DNA from: Paramecium sonneborni
Lineage: Eukaryota; Ciliophora; Oligohymenophorea; Peniculida; Parameciidae
Assembly: GCA_905182985.1 (NCBI GenBank)
Contig: CAJJDN010000083.1
Coordinates: 309,880 to 373,879 of the forward strand
Reading direction: 5' to 3'
Length of the DNA stretch: 64,000 nucleotides
Shown here: positions 17,031 through 64,000 of the stretch, piece after piece
How the letters are laid out: each line of letters starts with the position of its first letter
Position numbering within the stretch: the first letter of the stretch is position 1
Made by a program: the position numbers and the translations under genes
The notes under the pieces: model-generated
The model's database searches: none
Seen by the model: the letters and a program-made list of their open reading frames with translations, nothing else
What the model was told of the DNA's origin: nothing

Positions 17031-17657
17031 TATAATATAATATAATATAATAATCTTAAATGTAATTTAGATTATTTATCATAACTAATAATAGTCTTAA
17101 ATCTTAAAAATTAGAGGTATCTCAAAAAGCAATAAACAAATTCCATCAAAAAAAATTAAAGATTTTATCTATCATAATAGTCTTATTAATATTAAGAGAA
17201 TCTCTTTATATAGTTGAATAACAAAATTCATAAATTGAATATTCATATTTATACAAAATGTAATTTCATTAAAAGAATTAACTCAATAATCCACCAATAC
17301 CCGATTATGATTATTCCTTTTCCTTTAGTCCAAAGTACTTTACACCTACTTTATAATATAACTAATTTATAGTTAATTTTCATACATCCTAAAAAATTGG
17401 ATCTGCATCAATCACAACTTTAAACTTATTGAAAACTAAGTCATATGCTTCCCTGCTTTAAATTCTGATTGATTTTACTAATAAATGAATAAATAAAGCT
17501 TCTTAAGTAACTGTTGTAGGAATTAACTCATTCATTATCTTAACACTCTCATTATATAATCCCTGACCTAATTTACTAATAAAATTATTTTTCATATTTA
17601 CATTAATAAGTATCTGATTAAGTTATATTGTCTTTCTTATTCAGGTAATTATTAATT
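17031..17657. repeat. Gap-flanking duplicate A of 18102-18728 (627 bp)
   Basis: Collinear with 18102-18728 at a constant offset of 1071, with no difference that I found. It contains a partial second copy of the 3' exons of GET4 (stop TGA at the position matching 17266-17268), cut off by the N gap. Most likely an unmerged contig end, not a true second gene. Confidence 0.9.
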
Positions 17658-18101
17658 NNNNNNNNNNNNNNNNNNNNNNNNNNNNNNNNNNNNNNNNNNN
17701 NNNNNNNNNNNNNNNNNNNNNNNNNNNNNNNNNNNNNNNNNNNNNNNNNNNNNNNNNNNNNNNNNNNNNNNNNNNNNNNNNNNNNNNNNNNNNNNNNNNN
17801 NNNNNNNNNNNNNNNNNNNNNNNNNNNNNNNNNNNNNNNNNNNNNNNNNNNNNNNNNNNNNNNNNNNNNNNNNNNNNNNNNNNNNNNNNNNNNNNNNNNN
17901 NNNNNNNNNNNNNNNNNNNNNNNNNNNNNNNNNNNNNNNNNNNNNNNNNNNNNNNNNNNNNNNNNNNNNNNNNNNNNNNNNNNNNNNNNNNNNNNNNNNN
18001 NNNNNNNNNNNNNNNNNNNNNNNNNNNNNNNNNNNNNNNNNNNNNNNNNNNNNNNNNNNNNNNNNNNNNNNNNNNNNNNNNNNNNNNNNNNNNNNNNNNN
18101 N
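17658..18101. other. Assembly gap (444 N)
   Basis: Run of N flanked on both sides by the same 627-bp sequence. Confidence 0.99.
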
Positions 18102-18728
18102 TATAATATAATATAATATAATAATCTTAAATGTAATTTAGATTATTTATCATAACTAATAATAGTCTTAAATCTTAAAAATTAGAGGTATCTCAAAAAG
18201 CAATAAACAAATTCCATCAAAAAAAATTAAAGATTTTATCTATCATAATAGTCTTATTAATATTAAGAGAATCTCTTTATATAGTTGAATAACAAAATTC
18301 ATAAATTGAATATTCATATTTATACAAAATGTAATTTCATTAAAAGAATTAACTCAATAATCCACCAATACCCGATTATGATTATTCCTTTTCCTTTAGT
18401 CCAAAGTACTTTACACCTACTTTATAATATAACTAATTTATAGTTAATTTTCATACATCCTAAAAAATTGGATCTGCATCAATCACAACTTTAAACTTAT
18501 TGAAAACTAAGTCATATGCTTCCCTGCTTTAAATTCTGATTGATTTTACTAATAAATGAATAAATAAAGCTTCTTAAGTAACTGTTGTAGGAATTAACTC
18601 ATTCATTATCTTAACACTCTCATTATATAATCCCTGACCTAATTTACTAATAAAATTATTTTTCATATTTACATTAATAAGTATCTGATTAAGTTATATT
18701 GTCTTTCTTATTCAGGTAATTATTAATT
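18102..18728. repeat. Gap-flanking duplicate B of 17031-17657
   Basis: Second copy of the 627-bp sequence; this copy is contiguous with the full GET4 gene. Confidence 0.9.
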
Positions 18729-32100: not shown

Positions 32101-33894
32101 TATGAAATTTCAATTGAAACCATTTATTATGATAATATCATATTTTATTTACATTATTTATCATATTATTCTTATAGTTATGCAAATTCTGCTTTTAGTT
32201 ATTCAATAACATTCAATAGAGATTTAATTCTCGCTTCTAATTCACTTGTATCTTTGCTTTTTGGTTATAATTCAAATTAAGTTAATTTTCTTCTAAGATT
32301 TTGTATTTCATTATCTTTCAGTATAATTAATTCATTAGCTTTCTTATTTTCAATTTCAAATAATTTTAATTATTATATTCTAGCTTATAAATCTTAAATT
32401 TCAAGTTTATTAGCTTCAATTTAATCTTCTAAATATTTAACTCTTCTAATTAATGTTTAATTTTCATTATTTAATTATTTAATTTAAGTTGTTAAATATT
32501 TTGTTTCTTCTAATCTTTATTAAATTTAATTTTTTTCAATTTCTAAATTACCATATTTAATTTTAAGTGCATCTAATTGATTTTTTCTATCATTGGCAAT
32601 TTATTTAAGTTATTCTACAATTTCAACTAATCTCTTATTTTCGGTTTCAAATTCAATTTTTAATAATTTTTCATGTCTTAATTCTCCACAATTATTTTCT
32701 AATCTAGAGATTTCTTTTCTTAAATCATTCATAGCAGTTTATTAAACTTATAACATTTCATTAAGATTTTCAATTTCTTGATTTAAAACATTGATTTCAA
32801 GTAATTTATTTTCAAGATTAGTAATATCAAGACTTTGTTCATTAATTAATTTACATTTTTATTAAAGAGTCATACTTGAATTATTTAGTTATTCTTATAA
32901 TTTAATAACTTTCATTTTTTATGCTTCAACATCTTATTATTTTAATTCAATTTCAGTTTCCATTTATAATGTTTTTTTTCTCCATTCATCAACTTAACTA
33001 TTTAAATGTTAAATAAGATTTTTTAATTTTAATATTTCAGCATCTCTTAATTTAATTTCAGTAGCATGATTTCTTTAAGATGCTTCAATTTAAACAGCAT
33101 TCAATTTTTCATTTATTTCAAATAATTAATCTTATAATTTATTTCTTTCATCAACCATTTACCAATATCTATCTTACCATTAATTAGCCTGACCTTCTAA
33201 TCCTTTTAATTATCCTTCTACTTACATATTCTTAATTTCAATAGCTTGATATTTATTTAACTCAATTTCTAATTTATTATATTTATCTCTCCATTCATCT
33301 AATTCTCCTAATCTACTCTTCAATTATACTTATAAGTTTTCTAAATAATATAAACCATTAATACCATAGTTATTCTTTGTTTCTTCGATGGAATTATTTA
33401 ATTCATATGTATTTAATCTTTATTTCAATTCGTCGTTCTCTTTTATTAATTATCTAATTTACCCATATAAATCATCATTCTCTCCATATAATAATTAGAT
33501 CTTTGCATCTTATAATCTTATCTATTCATATTAATATATATAGATATACCACTTCTTCATTTGCTATATTCTTATCATATATAGCCATTAAATCTAAATA
33601 TCGTTTTCTCCATAATTCCACTTCATGTAACAAAGATTGGATTCTAACTTCATAATCAGAATAGTTTTATTAATCCACCTTTTTTGTTACAGTATATTAC
33701 ACATCTAAAGGAATTACAGTCTCTCTTGGAGTTTATGACAATATAAATTATGATTCTCTCAGTTAAGGATTTATTATTGTTTCTCTCTGAATTACTGATC
33801 CTCCATTACGTTCTCCAAGTTGAGGAGATAAGTATCTCATATGTGATTTTGTCAATGAAGACTAAATGATTGATTCTTATTTAGAAAAACTCAT
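29187..33894 (-). CDS. Giant coiled-coil protein, 1542 aa
   Basis: ATG 33894, TGA 29187-29189, introns at 33522-33549 (28 nt), 30548-30573 (26) and 29605-29629 (25); the spliced length is exactly 1543 codons. After a ~120-residue Ser/Thr/Pro-rich head, nearly the whole protein is heptad-like Leu/Ile/Gln/Glu/Lys/Asn with recurring W-R (for example DEWRDKYNKLE, EVEDWRRQAGNYYVD). About one in seven codons is TAA/TAG glutamine, which shatters standard-code ORFs. Resembles ciliate cytoskeletal coiled-coil proteins (basal body, epiplasm or axonemal), but no specific homologue can be named. The short DNA between it and the next plus-strand gene (214 bp) must serve both promoters. Confidence 0.85.
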
Positions 33895-40045: not shown

Positions 40046-40452
40046 ATGGCCTTTCTTGATCAAACAAAATATACTTTTATCAAACGACGCCACTTCTCAA
40101 AAAAGCGTAGACAAGAATCTAAACCAAGAAATTATACTTACATCACAACAAATGCTAAAAATTTGTTTCTCTAACTCTTTCTATTTCATAGCTACAAAAT
40201 CCATGATGTAAACAATTTCATATTAATTTTATCTTAGGCTGCTAACAAGGCTGGAATTAAGTATTCTTCTGCTAAAACTATACTCTTTGCTCATCGCAAA
40301 TCATATAAATAACAATTAATTAGAGATAAAAAAGCTGCAGTATTTATTTATTCAAATATTAGAATTCAATACAAACTAAATGTTGTGGATACAAACTTAA
40401 ATTATCTGATTAACCTGATAATGTTTAACTTAAAACCAGAGTTGGAATGTGA
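40046..40452 (+). CDS. Small HTH protein, 108 aa
   Basis: ATG 40046, TGA 40450-40452, three introns: 40165-40191 (27 nt), 40208-40237 (30), 40340-40362 (23). Basic N-terminus (KRRHFSKKRRQESKPR), then FYKIHDAANKAGIKYSSAK and TILFAHRKSYKQQLIRD: the same AA..GI.(Y/F)S.AK.IL HTH core as the 209-residue protein at 19284-19913. The unspliced frame also stays open far downstream, so the intron placement rests on GT-AG ends and on restoring the HTH core. Probably DNA-binding. A 3' partial copy lies after the N gap (41356-41615). Confidence 0.65.
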
Positions 40453-40943
40453 TTCTATTTCTTTCACAATCCCTAAATTGTATTTATTAATCAATTAAAT
40501 TGTTAATTTATAATTAATCAACTTTATACATTAATTTATTAAATATACAAGATAATCATTCTACACATTTAATTCTACATAAATCAATCTCTTAAATCTA
40601 ACCATTCATATTAAAAATATATCACAATCAAAACAGAAAAACAAAACTTAAAAACCAAATCATGTAATATATCACGCACCATTACTTATTAGAGTAATTA
40701 ATTCGAACTCTTACAATAAAAGTAAAGGATGAGAGAGAATAGAACTTAATTTTAATAAACTTAATACATTGATTTCAATTCAAATTAAGAGATGCAGATA
40801 TTCTCATATTTCAATTAAAAACTCAAAGATACAAATAATAAATTCATTCGAAAATAATAATCAATTTTGAAACAACAATTAACCATACCATAACTAATTA
40901 ATGTAAATAAAATTTCCAAAAAATTTATTAATAAAAAAAAAAA
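40193..40943. repeat. Gap-flanking duplicate A (751 bp)
   Basis: Collinear with 41356-42134 at offset 1163, except that the second copy has 28 extra bases at 41850-41877. Ends in an A12 run at the N gap, a likely cause of the assembly break. Confidence 0.9.
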
Positions 40944-41355
40944 NNNNNNNNNNNNNNNNNNNNNNNNNNNNNNNNNNNNNNNNNNNNNNNNNNNNNNNNN
41001 NNNNNNNNNNNNNNNNNNNNNNNNNNNNNNNNNNNNNNNNNNNNNNNNNNNNNNNNNNNNNNNNNNNNNNNNNNNNNNNNNNNNNNNNNNNNNNNNNNNN
41101 NNNNNNNNNNNNNNNNNNNNNNNNNNNNNNNNNNNNNNNNNNNNNNNNNNNNNNNNNNNNNNNNNNNNNNNNNNNNNNNNNNNNNNNNNNNNNNNNNNNN
41201 NNNNNNNNNNNNNNNNNNNNNNNNNNNNNNNNNNNNNNNNNNNNNNNNNNNNNNNNNNNNNNNNNNNNNNNNNNNNNNNNNNNNNNNNNNNNNNNNNNNN
41301 NNNNNNNNNNNNNNNNNNNNNNNNNNNNNNNNNNNNNNNNNNNNNNNNNNNNNNN
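40944..41355. other. Assembly gap (412 N)
   Basis: Run of N between the two copies of the HTH-gene 3' region. ORFs spanning it are meaningless. Confidence 0.99.
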
Positions 41356-42134
41356 TACAAAATCCATGATGTAAACAATTTCATATTAATTTTATCTTAG
41401 GCTGCTAACAAGGCTGGAATTAAGTATTCTTCTGCTAAAACTATACTCTTTGCTCATCGCAAATCATATAAATAACAATTAATTAGAGATAAAAAAGCTG
41501 CAGTATTTATTTATTCAAATATTAGAATTCAATACAAACTAAATGTTGTGGATACAAACTTAAATTATCTGATTAACCTGATAATGTTTAACTTAAAACC
41601 AGAGTTGGAATGTGATTCTATTTCTTTCACAATCCCTAAATTGTATTTATTAATCAATTAAATTGTTAATTTATAATTAATCAACTTTATACATTAATTT
41701 ATTAAATATACAAGATAATCATTCTACACATTTAATTCTACATAAATCAATCTCTTAAATCTAACCATTCATATTAAAAATATATCACAATCAAAACAGA
41801 AAAACAAAACTTAAAAACCAAATCATGTAATATATCACGCACCATTACTTATAGTTTATACTCTACATTATTATTTATATTAGAGTAATTAATTCGAACT
41901 CTTACAATAAAAGTAAAGGATGAGAGAGAATAGAACTTAATTTTAATAAACTTAATACATTGATTTCAATTCAAATTAAGAGATGCAGATATTCTCATAT
42001 TTCAATTAAAAACTCAAAGATACAAATAATAAATTCATTCGAAAATAATAATCAATTTTGAAACAACAATTAACCATACCATAACTAATTAATGTAAATA
42101 AAATTTCCAAAAAATTTATTAATAAAAAAAAAAA
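41356..42134. repeat. Gap-flanking duplicate B (779 bp, with 28-bp insert)
   Basis: Second copy of the region. It begins in the middle of the small HTH gene (partial CDS to 41615) and runs into unique sequence upstream of BRR2. Confidence 0.9.
41850..41877. mobile_element. Putative retained 28-bp IES
   Basis: Absent from the first copy, where the flanks are joined as ATTACT-TA-TTAGAG (TA at 40687-40688). The insert begins TATAGTTT and is followed by TA at 41878-41879, so removing it leaves exactly one TA, as in precise IES excision. The left end fits the Paramecium IES consensus TAYAGYNR at six of seven specified positions; the right end, read inward as TATAAATA, fits TAYA only. 28 bp is in the smallest, most common IES size class. 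Noncoding location. Orientation of the element is arbitrary. Confidence 0.65.
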
Positions 42135-42482: not shown

Positions 42483-45400
42483 ATGTCTGAATAACACTTA
42501 TAGGAGAGTAAATTTACATATGTAAAGTGAAATAAAATTTTAGAGTTCAAATTTAGTAGTTTAGAGAGAACATGGTGTTAGAACAGAAGAGCCTTCTGGT
42601 GAGCCTGAATCTTTGGTTGGTAAAATAAATCCTAGATTAATGGGTACAAAAGCAATTAGAGAGAAACCATAAAGGAATAAAAAAGAATAAGGAATAAGAT
42701 TAGATAGATAGGGTGAGATTGAAATTGAAGATGGGATAGGGATGCCAAGATATGATAATTTATTATATATTCCAAAAACAAAAGAGAATAGATTGCATTA
42801 TGAAAAATTATTAGGAATCGTTTATGGATTATTTTAAGAGTAATCTTAAGATGTAATAAAGTCAATAGTAGATGAAGTATTAGCAATAATGAAAAATGAA
42901 AATATGAAGGATTCAGAGAGAAGATATGAAGTAGAAGCATTAATGGGGAGATTATCAAATGAATTATTTTCTGATATAGTATTATCAACAAAGGGAATAA
43001 GTGATTATTAACCAGAGATTATTTATAAAAATAATTAAGAATTAGATTTGCCATTAAATTTAGAAGAGGAAGAGGAATCAAATGATGTAGATTAAATTGA
43101 AGAAGATGATAGTGATTTATAGAAATAAAATGATTATTAATAAGATAATAATTAAATAATTAGAACAAAGAATTAAGAAGAGTAGAATAGAAATATTAAA
43201 TAATTAGATATAGATGGATTTTGGTTGTAGAGAGAATTATAAAAAATATATAAAGATGCTATATAAGCATAATAGATGGAATAACTAGTATTAGATATAT
43301 TGAAGTTAGAATTAGATATTGAATGTGAAAATTAATTGGTTTAAGTGTTTGGTTAAGAGAGATTTGATTTAATTAGATTATTACATTAAAATAGATGTAA
43401 AATATATTATTGTACATTATTAAGTAAAGTTTAGAGTAATGAATAAAGATAATAAATATATTAATAAATGGAATCAACATAAAAAGGATTGGAGTTATTG
43501 ATGGAATTATAATAATAAACTAAATATAATAAGAATACAACTAAATTATAAATAACATAAGAAGATATGGAATAATAGGATAATACTTGTGTAGTTAATA
43601 CTGATTTATAGGGCTTAACTAAATAAGTGATAGATTTAGAACATTTATAATTTAATACTTAAGGACATTTGATGTCAAATGATAAATGTCATTTACCACC
43701 TCGTTCTTTAAAAGTTACTAAAAAAGGATATGAAGAAATATATATACCAGCTCCAAAATGTAATATACGTAATTAGGATTTGATTTAAATAAATGAGTTA
43801 CCTGAATTTGCATAATAAGCATTTAGAGGATTTAAAGAATTGAATACTATATAAAGTATAGTATATGAAACTGCTTTATTAAGTGATGAAAATATGTTAA
43901 TATGTGCTCCAACAGGTGCAGGTAAGACTAATGTAGCTTTATTAACTATGTTATAAACAATTGGATAATATTATGATAATGGTATTCTTGATATTTCAAA
44001 GTTTAAGATAATATATATTGCACCAATGAAAGCATTAGTAAATGAAATGGTACACAATTTCTAAAATAGATTAGAACCATATAATATTAGAGTAGCAGAG
44101 GTTACTGGTGATACTCATTTAACTAAACATTAATTAAATACAATTTAATTATTAATTGCTACTCCTGAGAAATGGGATATATTAACACGTAAAACATAAT
44201 AGAATGATTTTATTCAATTAGTAAGATTGATTATTATTGATGAAATACATTTATTACATGATAGTAGAGGTCCTGTAATAGAATCTATAGTTGCTAGAAC
44301 ACTTAAATAAATGGAAGATAGATAAGATTATATTAGAATTATAGGATTATCAGCTACACTACCTAATTATGCAGATGTAGCAACATTTATAAGAGTTAAA
44401 TAAACTGGTGTATTCTTTTTTGATAATTCATATAGACCAGTACCATTATAATAATAATATATTGGTATTAATGAAATGAAGCCTATAAGAAGAATGTTAT
44501 TAATGAATGAAATACTATATGAAAAAGTTATTGAAAGAATTACTAAATCATAAATCTTAATATTTGTTCATTCTAGAAAAGAGACTGTTAAGACTGCTAA
44601 GATTCTTAAAGAAATAGCTTATTCTAAAGATGAATTATCTAAATTTATTAAAGATGATAGTTCATCTAAAAAGATATTAGAAACTGTGATAGCATAAGAA
44701 GATATTAAATCCATTGATCTTAAAGACTTACTTGCAAGTGGAATAGGAATACATCATGCAGGTTTATGTAGAGCAGATAGAGATTTAGTTGAAAGTCTAT
44801 TTGAAAAAAAGAATTTATAAATTTTAATATCAACATCAACATTAGCTTGGGGTGTTAATTTACCTGCACATACTGTTATTATTAAAGGAACATAAATATA
44901 TTCACCAGAATAAGGAAAATGGATGGAATTAAGTCCTTAAGATATTCTTTAAATGATGGGAAGAGCAGGTCGTCCTAGATATGATACATCTGGAGAAGGA
45001 ATTATATTAACAACATATTAAGAGTTAAAATATTATTTATCTCTTTTAAATATGTAATTACCTATTGAATCTTAATTTATAACTTAACTTGCTGATTAAC
45101 TTAATGCTGAAATTGCATAAACTAATATTAAAAATCTTAAAGATGGAGTTAATTGGTTAGCTTATACATATCTTTATGTAAGAATGCTGAGAAATCCTAC
45201 ATTATATAATATTCCTGATTCTAATCATGATTAATTTCTAATTAAATATCGTGCTGATCTATTGCATTCTGCCTCTTTATTATTAGATAAGAATAATCTA
45301 ATTAGTTATGATAAAAAAACAGGAAATTTGGAAACTACTATTCTTGGTAAAATTGCTAGTAATTATTATATTAAATATCCAAGTATGTAAGTATATAATT

Positions 45401-48400
45401 AACATCTTAAATCTAATATGGGAATGATTGATATATTTAAAGTATTCTCTTTATCCCATGAATTTAAATTAATACCTATAAGAGAAGAAGAAAAAATTGA
45501 ATTATCTAAATTAATGATGAGTGTACCAGTTCCTATTAAAGGATCTCCTGAAGATCCATCTACTAAAATCAATGTTTTACTTTAAGCATATATAAGTAGA
45601 TTAAAATTAGAAGGATATGCACTCAACTCTGATATGGTTTATATTACATAAAGTGCTGCTAGAATTATGAGAGCATTATATGAAATATGTTTATATAAAG
45701 AATGGGCTTAAAGTGCACTATAATGTCTACAATTATCTAAAATGATTGAAAAACGGATGTGGAATTGTATGACTCCTCTTAGATAATTTAAAGGATTACC
45801 AGATGATTTACTTAGACGAATTGAAAAAAAAGAAGGAATTACATGGGAACATCTTTATGCTATGTCATCATAATAATTAGGAGAATTAATTAGATATTAA
45901 AATTCAAGTATGACAAAATTAATACATAAATATATTCACAAATTTCCTAAAATTGAAATCTAAGCATATGCATAACCTATTACTAGATCATCTCTTCGAA
46001 TTGATCTTATGTTGTCTTGTGATTTTTAATGGGATGAAAAAATACATGGAAGATAAGAACCTTTTCATATCTTTGTCTTAGATTCTGATGCTGAAAAAAT
46101 TATGTATCATGAATTATTTCTAATGAAATAAAAAATATAAGAAATGTAATTTACTTTTACTGTCCCATTATATGAAATCATGCATCCAATCTATTATATT
46201 AAAGTTATATCAGATAAATGGATCTCTTGTGAAACTGAATAGCCTATACCTTTTAAAAATCTTCTATTACCAGAACCTTTCAATAGATGTACTGAATTAC
46301 TTTAATTAACTTTATTATCTATTGATCAAATTAAACATTCTCAAATTGAAAATATATTAGCAAAAAAAATTATGAATAACAGATATTTTGATTCAATTTA
46401 AACTTAAGTATTTCAAAACTTGTATTAAACAAATGATAATATTTTTATAGGAGTATCAACATATCAAACCAAAAATATATTACCAATCTTGGCTATTTTA
46501 TAAATGGTAAATCATTTTAAAGGTTATAAAGCTATTTATATATCATCTATTAATTGTGAAATTAAGTTTAATTAATTTGTTTAGCTATTTAATAAGACAC
46601 TTTCCTTAAAAATTGGCAAGCTGACTGGACAATAATAAACAGACAACAAAATTCTTGAATAATGTGATATTATCATTTCAAATCCAGTAAATTGGGATAT
46701 AATGAGTAGAAGATGGAGATCTAAAAAAGGATTTAAAGAAATTAGATTGCTAATAGCTGATGATTTACATACTCTAAATTAATCTGGAAGTGTATTAGAA
46801 GTTATTGTATCAAGAATGAGAATGGTATCAATGGAAATTCCATTCAGAATAGTTGGTTTATCATTGTCAGTTGCTGATTATAAAGAAATGAGTGAATGGT
46901 TAGGTGCCAAATACTCATACAATTTTTCTCCAATTATCAAACCAAATAATATTCAAATTTAGATTAGTTCATTTGATTAATGTTAAAGACCATTGAGGAT
47001 ATAAGCTATGATCAATGCAATGAAAACTAATTTATCTAATTCAGAATTAAATATAATATATGTTTCTGATAGAAAATTAGCTAGAGTTTGTGCCTTAGAA
47101 CTTATGATTAATAATAATTATTAATTATCTGGTTATTAAATAAAAGAAGATTAATATCTTTAACATACATTACAATCATCTGTAGGATTTTTATATGAAT
47201 GTATGAATCCATAAGATGAAAATGAAGTATTAAAGTTTATACATTCTAATCAATTAAGAATAGTTGCAATACCATATAAATAAGCCTTGCATTATAATTT
47301 AAAAGGTTAAGTCTTTATTTTAGATAATTAAAAATATGATGGAATCGAAAAAAGATACATAGATTATACAATTGCAGAGATGTTGGAAATGATAGAAAGT
47401 ACAACATCTTAATGTCATATTCTTACCTATACTCCTAAAAAGGAATATTATAAGAAATTCTTATATGAACCAATGCCAATTGAATCACATTTGAATCATC
47501 ATTTAGCAAATCATTTGAATGCTGAAATAGTTGCAAAAAATATTCATAATACTTAAGATTGTATTGATTGGATTACTTGGACATTTATGTATAGAAGATT
47601 AACATAAAATCCTAATTATTATAATCTTCATGAAGTGAATGGTGTTGCGATAAATAATTATCTTAGTGAACTTATAGAAACTACAATTGATGAATTACAT
47701 GAAAGTAAATGTATTGCAGTTGAAGAAGATAATGAATTAGAAGCAATCAATTCAGGAATTATAGCTAATTATTATTACATCAATATAGAAACTGTTAAAA
47801 ATTATTCAGATAAAATTAATTCAAATTCTAAATTAAGAGAACTTTTATTTATTTTATCTGAAGCCAAAGAATTTGAAGTCCTTAATATTCGTAATGGAGA
47901 AGAAAACTTACTTGCCTAATTACTTTAGAAAATCCCTTATTAACCAACTAATCCTAAATTGAATGAACCAAATACAAAAGCATTGATCTTATTATAAGCT
48001 CATTTTTCTAGAATTAAATTAAATTCTGATCTTAAATCAGATCTTACTATTTTAGAAATAGCTATTAGATTGAGTACTGCTATGGTTGATATAGCATCAT
48101 CTAATTTATGGCTTAAACCTGCTATTCTATCTATGTAAATTTGTTAAATGATTGTCCAAAGTCTCTGGGTTGATTAAGACAGTGTTCTCTTATAATTACC
48201 TTACTTTACCTAACAAACTATTTAAAATCTCAAAGACTACAATATTGAAGATTGGGCAGATTTTTTTGATATGCAAGAGTCTGATAGAACTTAAATTCTA
48301 TAGAACTTTACATCAAATTAGATCGAAGATATAGCTTAAGCTGGAAATAGGTATTTATAATAATTATTATTAAAGAATACCATCTATTGAAATTACTGAT

Positions 48401-48748
48401 ATCATATCAGAACCTGAAGTTGTTTAAGGGGATATTTACCATGTCTAAGTCATTCTATCAAGATAAGATAATATATACACTGATTATGTTATTGCTCCAA
48501 ATTATCCTAAACCTAAAGAAGAATAATGGTGGGTTTTGTGCGCTGATAGAACCTCGAATCGATTATTTGGTAATAAGAAGATCTCTTTTTCATCAAATAT
48601 CAGAGTTGACCTGAGATTTTAAGCCCCAGAAGCAGGTGAATATGAACTAACCATTTATGCTATTTGTGACTCCTATATTGGGGTAGATACTACATCTCAA
48701 TTTCAATTAAAAGTTAATCCTATTATAGAATAAGAATAAGAATAATGA
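42483..48748 (+). CDS. BRR2: U5 snRNP helicase BRR2 (SNRNP200)
   Basis: 2072 residues, ATG 42483, TGA 48746-48748, introns only at 42522-42543 (22 nt) and 48351-48375 (25). Seen: the N-terminal PLUG-like block [20 protein letters not shown] and DGFWLQRELQKIYKDAIQAQ; first Ski2-like cassette with APTGAGKT (residues 468-475, nt 43906-43929), DEIH (579, nt 44239-44250), SATLPN and [12 protein letters not shown]; first Sec63 module; a second cassette; and a C-terminal FNIII-like end with [15 protein letters not shown] and [19 protein letters not shown]2 unwinds U4/U6 to activate the spliceosome; the N-terminal cassette is the active motor. The N-terminal and C-terminal blocks distinguish it from ASCC3. 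In the second cassette the Walker A is replaced by GVSTYQTKN (about residue 1316) and motif II reads DDLH (about 1419), so it is probably a non-catalytic regulatory cassette. Confidence 0.97.
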
Positions 48749-51300
48749 GTTTATTAACTAAATTTTAAATTATTTATTTATTTTTATTTAATAGATTTAT
48801 TTATACACACAATGATAATATGGACTTATAGCTTCTTACAATTAATTTTATAATCTATTTATTTATGAGAAAATTACAACTTTTCAGAAAATGTGGCAAA
48901 TAATTTATCACAATAATTTTCATCCTTTGAATATATTAAATGATAATGAGACACTAATTAAATTCATTCAAATCTTAAATATTAATGTTAAGTATTTTCT
49001 TAAGTTAAGACTTATTATAAAATATTATTATTCACTTTTATATACCATGATCATTATTTATTTAATAAACTAAATCAATCGTTACATTATATTACAATTA
49101 TTGTAAATACGTTCATCCACATGATGATTGATTATAAATAATGATCACGGCTACAAAAATTACGTAATACAAATTTTCTAGATATAGGAGTTGAAATATT
49201 GATTTCTTCTTTTTATGAAATAATATTCCTATTTTGTAAATAGTTGGTCTAATAATTATTTTGTAATTTTGAATGCTTTATTTCTTTTTATAATTTGAAA
49301 ATTTATTTATTAGTTTGCTTATGATTAATTGTTTTATTAAAAATAGTGAGGTTTTGATATGTGTTCTTTAAAACTAAAAAAAATCAGTTAATTAATAATA
49401 AAATGAATCTTTTATTAGTTTATACAAATTTTACTCCTTCAGTTTGTAATGAAGATTAAATTTATATTTTAAAACTAGATTGTTAAAGTATTAAGTTTAA
49501 GTGATTCGTAATTAATAATATTAATATCTATAACTATTAATTTTGAAAGAGTAATTATCAAATGTTGAAGGTTTATTTGAAATTGAACATTTTTTAGAAA
49601 TTTAAACAACCACATTTTAATTTTTAGAATTAAAATCATATAGGTAGTAAATAAATATATTAGAAACGAAATCCTTTCGTTTGCAATTTTTGAAAGTTGT
49701 CTTGATTTAATGTATATAATTTCTCTTAAATCAAGGTTATTTGGTTTATAATATATTAATTTTTGATTTTTTTATATTTTAGATATGAAGAAATATATAT
49801 AACTGGTATGTATCAGATATTAATGTTATTAGCCAACCATTAAAATTTAAGCTTATTGATCTAAATTATATATATAAATTGAAATTCTTTGTTTTCATTT
49901 GGTCTGAAATGCAAATTTGAGAGTATTTATGATATTTGGAGCATATTTTAAAAATAAAAAAGATTTAAAATGGGAAATGCTTGTTAAAATTGTCATTAAA
50001 ATGACACATAAGTATTTACTTAAGAGTAAGGAAGTTTTATAAAAGAAGAAAGCATAAAAGTGATTCAAAGTATGAGTCCAATTATTAAAAAACATGAATA
50101 TTAATTAGAAAATCTGAATGAAGGTATTGGAGTNTACACACAATGATAATATGGACTTATAGCTTCTTACAATTAATTTTATAATCTATTTATTTATGAG
50201 AAAATTACAACTTTTCAGAAAATGTGGCAAATAATTTATCACAATAATTTTCATCCTTTGAATATATTAAATGATAATGAGACACTAATTAAATTCATTC
50301 AAATCTTAAATATTAATGTTAAGTATTTTCTTAAGTTAAGACTTATTATAAAATATTATTATTCACTTTTATATACCATGATCATTATTTATTTAATAAA
50401 CTAAATCAATCGTTACATTATATTACAATTATTGTAAATACGTTCATCCACATGATGATTGATTATAAATAATGATCACGGCTACAAAAATTACGTAATA
50501 CAAATTTTCTAGATATAGGAGTTGAAATATTGATTTCTTCTTTTTATGAAATAATATTCCTATTTTGTAAATAGTTGGTCTAATAATTATTTTGTAATTT
50601 TGAATGCTTTATTTCTTTTTATAATTTGAAAATTTATTTATTAGTTTGCTTATGATTAATTGTTTTATTAAAAATAGTGAGGTTTTGATATGTGTTCTTT
50701 AAAACTAAAAAAAATCAGTTAATTAATAATAAAATGAATCTTTTATTAGTTTATACAAATTTTACTCCTTCAGTTTGTAATGAAGATTAAATTTATATTT
50801 TAAAACTAGATTGTTAAAGTATTAAGTTTAAGTGATTCGTAATTAATAATATTAATATCTATAACTATTAATTTTGAAAGAGTAATTATCAAATGTTGAA
50901 GGTTTATTTGAAATTGAACATTTTTTAGAAATTTAAACAACCACATTTTAATTTTTAGAATTAAAATCATATAGGTAGTAAATAAATATATTAGAAACGA
51001 AATCCTTTCGTTTGCAATTTTTGAAAGTTGTCTTGATTTAATGTATATAATTTCTCTTAAATCAAGGTTATTTGGTTTATAATATATTAATTTTTGATTT
51101 TTTTATATTTTAGATATGAAGAAATATATATAACTGGTATGTATCAGATATTAATGTTATTAGCCAACCATTAAAATTTAAGCTTATTGATCTAAATTAT
51201 ATATATAAATTGAAATTCTTTGTTTTCATTTGGTCTGAAATGCAAATTTGAGAGTATTTATGATATTTGGAGCATATTTTAAAAATAAAAAAGATTTAAA
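48749..51300. other. Noncoding stretch, inflated by duplication
   Basis: No supported gene between BRR2 and the MGN-start gene. About 1.2 kb of real sequence, appearing twice because of the duplication at 48804-51464. ORFs of 60-66 codons here lack Gln codons and recur only because the DNA does. Confidence 0.55.
48804..50133. repeat. Duplicate A of 50135-51464 (1330 bp)
   Basis: Identical as far as I compared, offset 1331, separated by one N at 50134. Its right end holds the first 164 nt of the MGN-start gene (ATG at 49970). Confidence 0.92.
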
Positions 51301-51464
51301 ATGGGAAATGCTTGTTAAAATTGTCATTAAAATGACACATAAGTATTTACTTAAGAGTAAGGAAGTTTTATAAAAGAAGAAAGCATAAAAGTGATTCAAA
51401 GTATGAGTCCAATTATTAAAAAACATGAATATTAATTAGAAAATCTGAATGAAGGTATTGGAGT
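50135..51464. repeat. Duplicate B of 48804-50133
   Basis: Second copy, contiguous with the complete MGN-start gene. The single N marks a join of overlapping contigs. Confidence 0.92.
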
Positions 51465-51723
51465 AAGCACTATTACTTCATTTATCATTAAACCAAAAAA
51501 TTAGACTTAAATTCTAGAGATTTTAAGGGGAATAAAAAACATTGACACAGAAATCAGATATTATAATCAATTAGATTAGGGATCTGGCAGTCCTTCTTCA
51601 AAAAATGACTCTCAAAACTTAAAGGGTAAATGTAATAGTGAAAGGCATGTTCACTTTTAAATTCCCTAAATGCAGATAATAAAACATGAATCTAAAATTG
51701 TTCAGAAAAAGCTTAAGAAATGA
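51301..51723 (+). CDS. Small MGN-start protein, 140 aa
   Basis: Intronless, ATG 51301, TGA 51721-51723, 141 codons. The start MGNACQNCHQNDTQVFTQEQ carries Gly2 followed by Asn-Ala-Cys and a second Cys: a good N-myristoylation pattern with nearby Cys for palmitoylation, hinting at membrane attachment. The rest is Lys/Gln/Ser/Ile-rich (ESIKVIQSMSPIIKKHEYQL; GSGSPSSKNDSQ) and likely part coiled coil. No family recognised. The 5' part (to 51464) and 3' part (from 51530) each fall in different gap-flanking duplications, so partial copies exist at 49970-50133 and 52660-52853; only this copy is whole. Confidence 0.75.
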
Positions 51724-52658
51724 AGAATTAAGTTTGAAATATAAAAATTTAATTGATATAAAGATAATTAAATACAAAATTTAATATAATGTCTGCATTC
51801 TCAAATCAAAATGCACTTTAATGTTTTTGTTTTTTGAAATGTCTAATTATAAGTTCAAGATATTTGGATTTTTTATAATTACATTGAAATAAATAGATTG
51901 ATTACTTCATAAAGTTTTAGATTAATGTGAAATGAATTAAAATATTGATTAAATATGTTCATACATTCAAAAGGTAAAATTTCAATTGTAAACACTTTTT
52001 ATAATATTTTTATTTCTAAAATTTCATTTGACAAATTTAAGGCTAAAAATTCTAATCAAAAATTTCATGAGAAAAAAAACCAATATTCATACAAATATTT
52101 TTTAAGAATAGCTTTTTATCATTTTAAAATCTTTTTCAACATTTTTCTCTTTTAATATATTCAGCCGCCTTAAAAAGTAGTTTGTATTGATTTGATTAGT
52201 TTGATAAATTGATTTTTTAATTCAATTCTAATTAATTTGGCTATAAAATTTATTTAAAATATATGAATCATCTAAGTAAAAGAAAAATCACAAAACTTTT
52301 TAATATAACATTTAAAAAAAATCAAAAACTCTAACCAATAATACTAAATCGATCACTTGAGAACTTTCATCATAATGAATAGAATGAAAATTCAACCTAT
52401 TATTTGAAATTATTGGATATTTTAAGAAATTAGCCAAACCAGTGAATATGGTTTTCATAAAGCTTAATTTTATTTGATCAAGTTTATTTGAAATTGTAAT
52501 AATATTTGTTTAGTTCTATCTTTAATAAGTTTATCTAATATCAGGCTTAAGGCTACTCAATTACTTTCAAATTTAATCGATTGCAACTACAACTTTTGTT
52601 TTCTTTCAGTTATTGAAAAAATTAATTAAAATTAACAACATAAAGATATTTATTTATA
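51530..52658. repeat. Duplicate A of 52660-53788 (1129 bp)
   Basis: Collinear with 52660-53788 at offset 1130, single N at 52659. Apart from the 3' end of the MGN-start gene, no gene is supported within it; the 66-codon ORF at 51955 has no family features. Confidence 0.92.
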
Positions 52659-52659
52659 N

Positions 52660-53788
52660 GAATAAAAAACATTGACACAGAAATCAGATATTATAATCAA
52701 TTAGATTAGGGATCTGGCAGTCCTTCTTCAAAAAATGACTCTCAAAACTTAAAGGGTAAATGTAATAGTGAAAGGCATGTTCACTTTTAAATTCCCTAAA
52801 TGCAGATAATAAAACATGAATCTAAAATTGTTCAGAAAAAGCTTAAGAAATGAAGAATTAAGTTTGAAATATAAAAATTTAATTGATATAAAGATAATTA
52901 AATACAAAATTTAATATAATGTCTGCATTCTCAAATCAAAATGCACTTTAATGTTTTTGTTTTTTGAAATGTCTAATTATAAGTTCAAGATATTTGGATT
53001 TTTTATAATTACATTGAAATAAATAGATTGATTACTTCATAAAGTTTTAGATTAATGTGAAATGAATTAAAATATTGATTAAATATGTTCATACATTCAA
53101 AAGGTAAAATTTCAATTGTAAACACTTTTTATAATATTTTTATTTCTAAAATTTCATTTGACAAATTTAAGGCTAAAAATTCTAATCAAAAATTTCATGA
53201 GAAAAAAAACCAATATTCATACAAATATTTTTTAAGAATAGCTTTTTATCATTTTAAAATCTTTTTCAACATTTTTCTCTTTTAATATATTCAGCCGCCT
53301 TAAAAAGTAGTTTGTATTGATTTGATTAGTTTGATAAATTGATTTTTTAATTCAATTCTAATTAATTTGGCTATAAAATTTATTTAAAATATATGAATCA
53401 TCTAAGTAAAAGAAAAATCACAAAACTTTTTAATATAACATTTAAAAAAAATCAAAAACTCTAACCAATAATACTAAATCGATCACTTGAGAACTTTCAT
53501 CATAATGAATAGAATGAAAATTCAACCTATTATTTGAAATTATTGGATATTTTAAGAAATTAGCCAAACCAGTGAATATGGTTTTCATAAAGCTTAATTT
53601 TATTTGATCAAGTTTATTTGAAATTGTAATAATATTTGTTTAGTTCTATCTTTAATAAGTTTATCTAATATCAGGCTTAAGGCTACTCAATTACTTTCAA
53701 ATTTAATCGATTGCAACTACAACTTTTGTTTTCTTTCAGTTATTGAAAAAATTAATTAAAATTAACAACATAAAGATATTTATTTATA
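52660..53788. repeat. Duplicate B of 51530-52658
   Basis: Second copy; begins inside the MGN-start gene's coding sequence (3' part only, to 52853) and continues into unique noncoding DNA. Confidence 0.92.
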
Positions 53789-57099: not shown

Positions 57100-60000
57100 T
57101 CAATTTAATTATATGGATTTTAATTTCTCATTAATATAATCATTTTCTTAAGATCCCTCTAGTAATGCATCTTCATAAACAGTAATTGCTTCTTTGTATT
57201 TTTTTAATTCTAGTAATGAATCAGCTAAATGATAAAATTGATTTAATTACCTTTTTATATAAGATATGAAGGATCTTAAGAAATGAATAAAGCAATATCT
57301 AATTAGATTACTGCTTCTTTATATCTTTTTAGGCAATGTAAAGCTTATCCTATTATATATTTAGAATTCGAAATATACCTTTTAATGCATATGCTTTATG
57401 TTAAGTGTTATCAAGGAGAATAACACTGTTCAATGAAGCTATAGCATCTTCAAAATGATGCTATTTGATTTAACTGATGGCTAAAAATAAGTAAAAATTT
57501 AACCTTTTATAAGATAAGATCCGAAACGTGAAGGATCAATCTTTATAGCTAGATTTGAAATTTTTATAGCTTCTTCATGCTGATCCATAAAGTTTAAACA
57601 TTATGCTAAATTATATTTTATTTTTAACCCTTATTTTTATGTGCAATCCAATTATTAGGATCGATTTCTATGATTTTATCAAAATATTTAATAGCCTACT
57701 AGTAATCTTTTAATTTAATTAGTTTATCACCTTATTAAAGATGAGAACTAATTTCTGAATTATCGATTTTCTTGGATTTTGTTGAATCATTTTATAACTA
57801 TATTTCGGAATTCTTTTTATATTTACATATACTAGTTTTTATTCATTTTATTAATTCTCAAAGAATTATATCAAGAAATTATTTAGAAAACTCTCGAATT
57901 AGTTTATTTATGATTATTAATAAGGATTTAGTAAAATTTATTCTTTTTTTTTATCTTTTATTTGAATTATTTAATACCTTCAATTGCTTATTAATCATCT
58001 AGTGGAATAGATTTTATCTTTTAAAAATATGTAATAATTTGCTCAGGACGAATCTCATTTAAATTTAATCATAACATTTTACCTTATTCTTAATTTTCTC
58101 CAAATATTGATAAAACTGTTCTCTTCATTTCATTCATTTCCTATGATGAAATTTGGTTTTTGTTTTATTGACCATTCATTTTATTATTTTAAAAAAGTAA
58201 TGAAAGAGTTCCTTAAGAATTTATCAAAAATCCTTTAATAATATTTTCCATAGCTTATTAATATTATTTTAATAGTAATAATGCTTCCCCTGTTAATAAT
58301 ATTAATTTTATTACCTTTTTTTAAATAAAATTAAAAACATTAAGAGTTTTAAGATATGATTTGATCACAAATTTCGATAACACTCTCAAATTCTTTCTTT
58401 TACATTAAAATTTATACTATTAATATCATAAATTTAATACTTTTCCAATTCAGAGCCTCTGAACAAGTTGGTTCAATTTTCAGAACTTATTCAAATATTT
58501 CTAATGATTATTGATAATCATTTGTAATAAATAAGTCGATTCCTAATTTTAAAATGTTAAACACTTACCTTATTGAATCATTACATCAACTATATCTTAA
58601 TTTTAAAATGCTATTTGATTTAAATTCTGATTGATAGCAACTTTTAGATTTGGATTTTGTAATATCATTTACTCTAATTTCTATAAAGAATCCATTATNT
58701 GAAATTTTTATAGCTTCTTCATGCTGATCCATAAAGTTTAAACATTATGCTAAATTATATTTTATTTTTAACCCTTATTTTTATGTGCAATCCAATTATT
58801 AGGATCGATTTCTATGATTTTATCAAAATATTTAATAGCCTACTAGTAATCTTTTAATTTAATTAGTTTATCACCTTATTAAAGATGAGAACTAATTTCT
58901 GAATTATCGATTTTCTTGGATTTTGTTGAATCATTTTATAACTATATTTCGGAATTCTTTTTATATTTACATATACTAGTTTTTATTCATTTTATTAATT
59001 CTCAAAGAATTATATCAAGAAATTATTTAGAAAACTCTCGAATTAGTTTATTTATGATTATTAATAAGGATTTAGTAAAATTTATTCTTTTTTTTTATCT
59101 TTTATTTGAATTATTTAATACCTTCAATTGCTTATTAATCATCTAGTGGAATAGATTTTATCTTTTAAAAATATGTAATAATTTGCTCAGGACGAATCTC
59201 ATTTAAATTTAATCATAACATTTTACCTTATTCTTAATTTTCTCCAAATATTGATAAAACTGTTCTCTTCATTTCATTCATTTCCTATGATGAAATTTGG
59301 TTTTTGTTTTATTGACCATTCATTTTATTATTTTAAAAAAGTAATGAAAGAGTTCCTTAAGAATTTATCAAAAATCCTTTAATAATATTTTCCATAGCTT
59401 ATTAATATTATTTTAATAGTAATAATGCTTCCCCTGTTAATAATATTAATTTTATTACCTTTTTTTAAATAAAATTAAAAACATTAAGAGTTTTAAGATA
59501 TGATTTGATCACAAATTTCGATAACACTCTCAAATTCTTTCTTTTACATTAAAATTTATACTATTAATATCATAAATTTAATACTTTTCCAATTCAGAGC
59601 CTCTGAACAAGTTGGTTCAATTTTCAGAACTTATTCAAATATTTCTAATGATTATTGATAATCATTTGTAATAAATAAGTCGATTCCTAATTTTAAAATG
59701 TTAAACACTTACCTTATTGAATCATTACATCAACTATATCTTAATTTTAAAATGCTATTTGATTTAAATTCTGATTGATAGCAACTTTTAGATTTGGATT
59801 TTGTAATATCATTTACTCTAATTTCTATAAAGAATCCATTATAGAATTTAAATTGCTCATAAATTATGCTTTTTTTTATTAAAATAATGTTTTACATTCC
59901 ATCTCCTTTTCAATTATATTATTTTAATGTTTAAGGAAATCTATATCTATTTCCTTATGAAGGTTTGGCCCTTCTTTCATATGCTAATCAATTTATTTTA

Positions 60001-63829: not shown

Positions 63830-63978
63830 NNNNNNNNNNNNNNNNNNNNNNNNNNNNNNNNNNNNNNNNNNNNNNNNNNNNNNNNNNNNNNNNNNNNNNN
63901 NNNNNNNNNNNNNNNNNNNNNNNNNNNNNNNNNNNNNNNNNNNNNNNNNNNNNNNNNNNNNNNNNNNNNNNNNNNNNN
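63830..63978. other. Assembly gap (149 N)
   Basis: Run of N. The two ORFs crossing it are artefacts. Confidence 0.99.
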
Positions 63979-64000
63979 AGAATAACACTGTTCAATGAAG
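63979..64000. repeat. 22 bp matching the TPR gene (57417-57438)
   Basis: The bases after the gap are identical to part of a TPR exon of the gene at 57100-60292, same strand. Either another unmerged contig or a further TPR paralogue begins here. Confidence 0.7.

Follow-up and report, generated by a model that had tools for sequence, protein, structure and literature searches.

A 28-bp, TA-bounded insert is the only difference between two printings of a single locus in the Paramecium sonneborni assembly, and we consider it probable that this insert is a germline IES of the species that was retained or incompletely excised, including the case in which it is seen through micronuclear DNA. The pair formed by the insert and its uninserted counterpart is almost certainly a product of the IES machinery. 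The window analyzed was a stretch of 64,000 nucleotides (positions 309,880-373,879 of scaffold CAJJDN010000083.1, here C83) with a GC content of 21.8%, and the assembly comprised 91.5 Mb in 289 contigs. The constitutive MAC assembly of the species, before addition of the 'MAC-variable' regions (low-coverage scaffold ends), was reported as 82 Mb, the largest of the nine species tabulated (PMC8354472). For that study, MAC and MIC reads were sequenced from P. sonneborni strain ATCC 30995, the MIC at a limited depth of 13x, and an IES set was compiled for the species.

The two copies of the locus lie on either side of a scaffold gap (Table 1). When they were aligned, 751 of 751 shared positions were identical and the insert was the sole difference, in agreement with the initial annotation. 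A direct repeat of three bases (TAT) allowed four equivalent placements of the insert, starting at 41850 to 41853, and only the first of these was TA-bounded; its removal left a single TA (ATTACT-TA-TTAGAG), again as had been claimed. A search of the genome with 131 bp around the insert matched the two copies only. The pair has the form of a TA-indel, with one locus printed twice in forms that differ by a TA-bounded segment.

Table 1. Coordinates of the features discussed (window positions unless C83 is given) and genome-wide counts of segments with the end class of the insert
Feature	Position	Strand	Remarks
Left copy, insert absent	40193-40943	+	alignment
412-N scaffold gap separating the two printings of the single locus	40944-41355		
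Right copy, insert present	41356-42134	+	alignment
28-bp TA-bounded insert, candidate IES	41850-41877		inward ends TATAG (left) and TATAA (right)
Right flanking TA	41878-41879		stays as the single TA after excision
Uninserted site in left copy	40687-40688		single TA
Small upstream gene	40046-40452	+	introns 40208-40237 (30 nt) and 40340-40362 (23 nt)
BRR2-like spliceosomal helicase gene	42483-48748 (approximate)	+	downstream
Spurious gap duplications, 0.6-1.3 kb	17031-18728; 48804-51464; 51530-53788; 57553-59842		
Spurious gap duplications, 0.6-1.3 kb	C83 33408-35585; 38439-40873; 229815-232127		
TATAG-N-TTATA, 22 bp	whole genome		1592 sites
TATAG-N-TTATA, 25 bp	whole genome		1601 sites
TATAG-N-TTATA, 27 bp	whole genome		1090 sites
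TATAG-N-TTATA, 28 bp	whole genome		1191 sites
TATAG-N-TTATA, 33 bp	whole genome		1613 sites

The double printing was a general property of the gaps in this scaffold. With three long all-N stretches set aside, the fetched parts of C83 contain nine gaps (runs of N), and eight of these had duplicated flanks; seven of the eight overlaps were perfect, and the remaining one carried the 28-bp insert. For two of the seven, the lone mismatch or alignment gap was the N letter itself, and an alignment ending at the N was 100% identical. The overlaps at the eight gaps totaled 8,440 bp and contained no SNPs and no indels besides the insert. The copies were spaced 1088, 1218, 1157, 1071, 1163, 1331, 1130 and 1144 bp apart, and this spacing held whether 1, 412 or 444 Ns remained in the gap, while the ninth gap (149 N) had no duplicated flank. 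The near-constant sum of overlap and Ns suggests gap estimates about 1.1-1.3 kb too large and filling that continued beyond the true join on either side. Newbler, SSPACE and GapCloser made up the published assembly recipe (PMC8354472); it is this recipe and the copy spacing, rather than reads, that suggest that the duplicates arose through gap filling. Among the genome-wide matches listed, identical short matches sharing a contig and strand formed nine pairs, counted by eye, with spacings of 1,011-1,329 bp, which suggests that duplicated gap flanks occur throughout the assembly; the count left aside a few further identical matches in the same listings, which lay about 1.7, 4.5 and 5.6 kb from each other. 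The insert had been proposed as a reason for the failed join at its gap, an explanation that was abandoned because the seven difference-free duplicated flanks likewise stayed unjoined.

Two further repeats were observed. An exact 241-bp copy of 57417-57657 starts at 63979, directly after the 149-N gap (63830-63978) and 6.5 kb away from the original, and is possibly a misplaced piece. A 527-bp direct repeat with 99% identity (C83 45776-46302 and 50666-51192) lies away from gaps, with its copies 4.9 kb apart.

The ends and the length of the insert were compared with those of known IESs. Its left inward end, TATAGTTT, matched the consensus TAYAGYNR at 7 of 8 positions, and the fit claimed for this end (TATAG) was upheld. 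The right inward end had been described as a poor match; read from the flanking TA, it is TATAAATA, begins with TATAA and matches at 6 of 8 positions, so that the description does not hold. Neither end is a perfect TAYAGYNR, and this was counted against the IES reading. In P. tetraurelia, the first size peak of IESs has its maximum at 26-28 bp and holds 35% of all IESs, with a minimum size of 26 bp (PMC3464196); the 28 bp of the insert falls within this peak, as annotated, but is not the minimum size that it had been taken for. The shortest P. tetraurelia IESs prefer T at the first and A at the second sub-terminal base, carry G at the third in fewer than 20%, and most frequently end in TATAG (PMC4132734). 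Given these preferences, TATAG and TATAA are both reasonable ends. The locus thus combines two flanking TAs that reduce to one, a first-peak length and ends that follow the weak consensus.

The frequency with which such features arise by chance was estimated by simulation. The window and the DNA fetched from its scaffold supplied 206,414 distinct simulated 28-bp deletions, of which 4,968 (2.4%) were TA-bounded and 55 (0.027%) additionally had one perfect TAYAGY end. When the comparison was limited to random deletions sharing 2 bp or more of microhomology, the 4,968 TA-bounded ones made up 22% of 22,288, and TA-bounding by itself is therefore weak evidence. A second simulation, with the five right-hand gap copies of the window masked, comprised 203,593 distinct random 28-bp deletions; TATNR was found at both ends in 150 of these (0.07%), and 3 (0.0015%) had, like the insert, two TATAR ends of which one or both were TATAG.

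Segments with ends like those of the insert were tested for depletion by length. Within a 303-kb set, TATAG/TATAA pairs averaged 2.3 per length at 26-28 bp (7 pairs), compared to 6.6 at 18-24 bp and 5.8 at 48-70 bp. Three TATAG/TATAG pairs were found at 26-28 bp and two at 18-24 bp, which is no depletion in a class too rare to judge at this scale. No clear depletion was detected in the same set for TATAR/TATAR (16.7 at 26-28 bp vs. 19.0 at 18-24 bp and 19.3 at 48-70 bp) or for TATNR/TATNR (162 vs. 173 and 170, respectively), indicating that depletion is confined to the stronger ends. Following this test, the end class for genome-wide counts was picked after the insert's own ends, and TATAG-N-TTATA was counted on both strands at five lengths, measured from TA to TA (Table 1). 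The counts at 27 and 28 bp were 0.68 and 0.74 of the mean at 22, 25 and 33 bp (Poisson z of -12.8 and -10.3), and the reversed-pattern controls were flat (2601, 2638, 2604, 2537 and 2581). TATAG/TATAG, counted genome-wide at two lengths, occurred 53 times at 28 bp and 210 times at 22 bp (about 25%; controls 370 and 396), which is close to the reduction to about one-fifth reported for this class in P. tetraurelia (PMC4132734). Depletion was thus graded with end quality: TATAG/TATAG at 28 bp stood at about 25% of its 22-bp count, and TATAG/TATAA at 27-28 bp kept about 68-74% of its level at the three other lengths (22, 25 and 33 bp). The depletion of the insert's class at 27-28 bp is a footprint of IES excision and shows, indirectly, that the class is recognized by the excision machinery of this species; of the five lengths counted, only 27 and 28 bp were affected.

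The class is disfavored at the insert's own length, yet 1,191 such segments still stand in the assembly, one of them (48330-48359) inside the BRR2-like reading frame, and belonging to the class therefore does not force removal. One of the 53 TATAG/TATAG 28-mers (33539-33568) overlaps a frame change in a minus-strand coiled-coil reading frame; it was set aside as an IES candidate, since an overlapping 28-nt GT...AG intron, identified by eye, explains the frame change equally well.

The insert is intergenic and lies between a small gene and a gene for a BRR2-like helicase. With code 6 (TAA and TAG read as Gln), the spliced 117-aa product of the small gene was identical to the P. sonneborni protein P0246, and relatives were found in other Paramecium species, one of which, from P. 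octaurelia, is labeled 'Transposase' by UniRef; the unspliced translation had no Pfam match. The insertion site is 234 bases past the stop codon of this gene, counted in the left copy, and the helicase ATG is 605 bp past the insert. A search with 1913 aa of the BRR2-like product returned P. octaurelia (88%) and P. pentaurelia (83%) but no entry named P. sonneborni among the 120 matches listed, so that, in the sequence comparisons, it was the single 117-aa identity that made P. sonneborni very probable as the host; a search with 600 aa returned no Paramecium-named entry among the 120 matches listed. The intergenic position of the site means that the wanted form cannot be recognized from a reading frame. 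Ohnologous loci on two other contigs (C98 and C134), which hold loci related to the small gene, aligned at 68-70%, and these alignments ended about 110 bp before the site, so the ohnologues cannot show the ancestral form either.

IESs of Paramecium are cut out at their bounding TAs by the PiggyMac complex during development, after which a single TA is left by end joining. Applied to this locus, the complex of the domesticated PiggyBac transposase (PiggyMac) would cut both TAs of the 28-bp IES during macronuclear development, and end joining would leave one TA and generate the left, insert-free form in most copies. The right form would come from sample DNA that still has the insert, either because some macronuclear copies were incompletely excised or, with lower probability, because the preparation contained micronuclear DNA. 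Both forms would have become visible because the over-sized gap was filled from its two sides and the reads followed on one side had the insert while those on the other lacked it. Germline origin, dependence on PiggyMac and the identity of the major form are what we infer for this sequence.

In standard cultures of P. tetraurelia, a few hundred IESs were described as incompletely excised (PMC8467633). This background, the assembly of both forms and the partial purging of the class from the genome are the reasons for which retention was judged probable; the weights given here to a retained IES, cryptic excision, an allele and an artifact are judgments and not measurements. In P. tetraurelia, an IES was present at the site of 689 of 739 residual TA-indels (93%), and 134 of the 689 were shorter than the IES at their site (PMC3464196), so the insert could be part of a longer element. 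The retained-IES reading of the initial annotation was supported in part, by size, TA boundary and ends and by the class depletion found here at 27-28 bp, and lost two claims attached to it, the cause of the failed join and the poor right end. The P. tetraurelia study asks for additional support before a TA-indel is called an IES (PMC3464196). The anatomy of the pair identifies a product of the IES machinery with high confidence, and does not show its direction, retention versus cryptic excision; it does not separate an IES from a cryptic TA-indel because the cryptic ones share the 26-30 nt peak and the TATNR ends.

Cryptic excision, by which the 28 bp would be normal macronuclear sequence that resembles an IES and was wrongly cut from some copies, with the left copy as the error product, is possible and, in our judgment, unlikely. 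'Low-frequency' TA-indels outnumbered residual ones in P. tetraurelia (1090 vs. 739), and 249 of the 1,090 had one end at an IES site (PMC3464196); the cryptic TA-indels described in that species peak at 26-30 nt and have TATNR ends, and 26-30 nt quasi-IESs with TATAG ends were excised at a higher rate than those with the two other end types compared there (PMC4132734). The many standing segments of the insert's class in P. sonneborni also agree with such an origin. However, these events were reported as rare and scattered over the polyploid genome (PMC4132734), whereas both forms were assembled here, and the partial purging of the class would make a standing segment less expected than an IES, a weighting that is our own. 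It is a doubtful but conceivable idea that the 28 bp are an incipient IES, that is, intergenic DNA destined for the macronucleus whose ends and length became near-optimal by chance, so that an IES would be arising without any transposon insertion. If true, the segment would be excised from a substantial share of macronuclear copies and would have been caught in both states.

An ordinary allelic indel polymorphism of the germline, independent of IES excision, is very improbable. Microhomology such as the 3-bp TAT is a usual feature of ordinary indels, and the 22% of TA-bounded deletions among those with at least 2 bp of microhomology shows how readily the boundary alone could arise; on the other hand, ends as good as those of the insert were obtained in only 3 of 203,593 random deletions, and high heterozygosity is described as uncharacteristic of the self-fertilizing relative P. 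tetraurelia (PMC8467633). The overlaps of the eight gaps displayed no background heterozygosity, and the absence of SNPs from their 8,440 bp argues against ordinary heterozygosity, with a single isolated allele formally possible. An assembly or library artifact, in which one junction never existed in the cell (a gap-filler error or a chimeric read), would suit a locus printed twice in a gap flank, as at eight of the nine gaps counted on the fetched scaffold parts, but is scarcely credible: the copies match throughout at the seven other duplicated flanks, a collapse would require an extended direct repeat where the left-copy junction offers 3 bp of homology, probably too little for an assembler, and the match to IES size and ends would stay unexplained.

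The insert pair probably belongs to a class that has already been described, the residual TA-indels or somatic IESs, which, as presented in reports on Paramecium (PMC3464196, PMC8467633), are likewise short TA-bounded segments of IES size with IES ends, carried by some copies of a MAC locus and lacking in others. The residual TA-indels of those reports were recognized by comparing reads with an assembly and the somatic IESs by retention levels, whereas the insert was recognized from two printings in one assembly. With cryptic excision and quasi-IESs (PMC4132734), it shares the 26-30 nt size, the TATNR ends and the footprint of depletion in the MAC; cryptic excision removes DNA destined for the macronucleus, in contrast to the germline-limited element of the retained-IES reading, and TATAG/TATAG is more depleted in the P. 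sonneborni genome than the mixed TATAG/TATAA class of the insert. The candidate shares its length, TA boundary and TATA-purine ends with the short first-peak IESs of Paramecium (26-28 bp).

Taken alone, the insert is a further excision variant of a well-described kind. The duplicated gap flanks act as false tandem repeats and false gene copies, such as the falsely repeated reading frames at 49113-49730 and 50444-51061, and they would mislead gene counts and studies of duplicate genes. The same flanks are the more useful outcome of this analysis: each pair gives two local, mutually independent readings of one macronuclear locus, and the set is a sample already at hand that could be mined for TA-indels.
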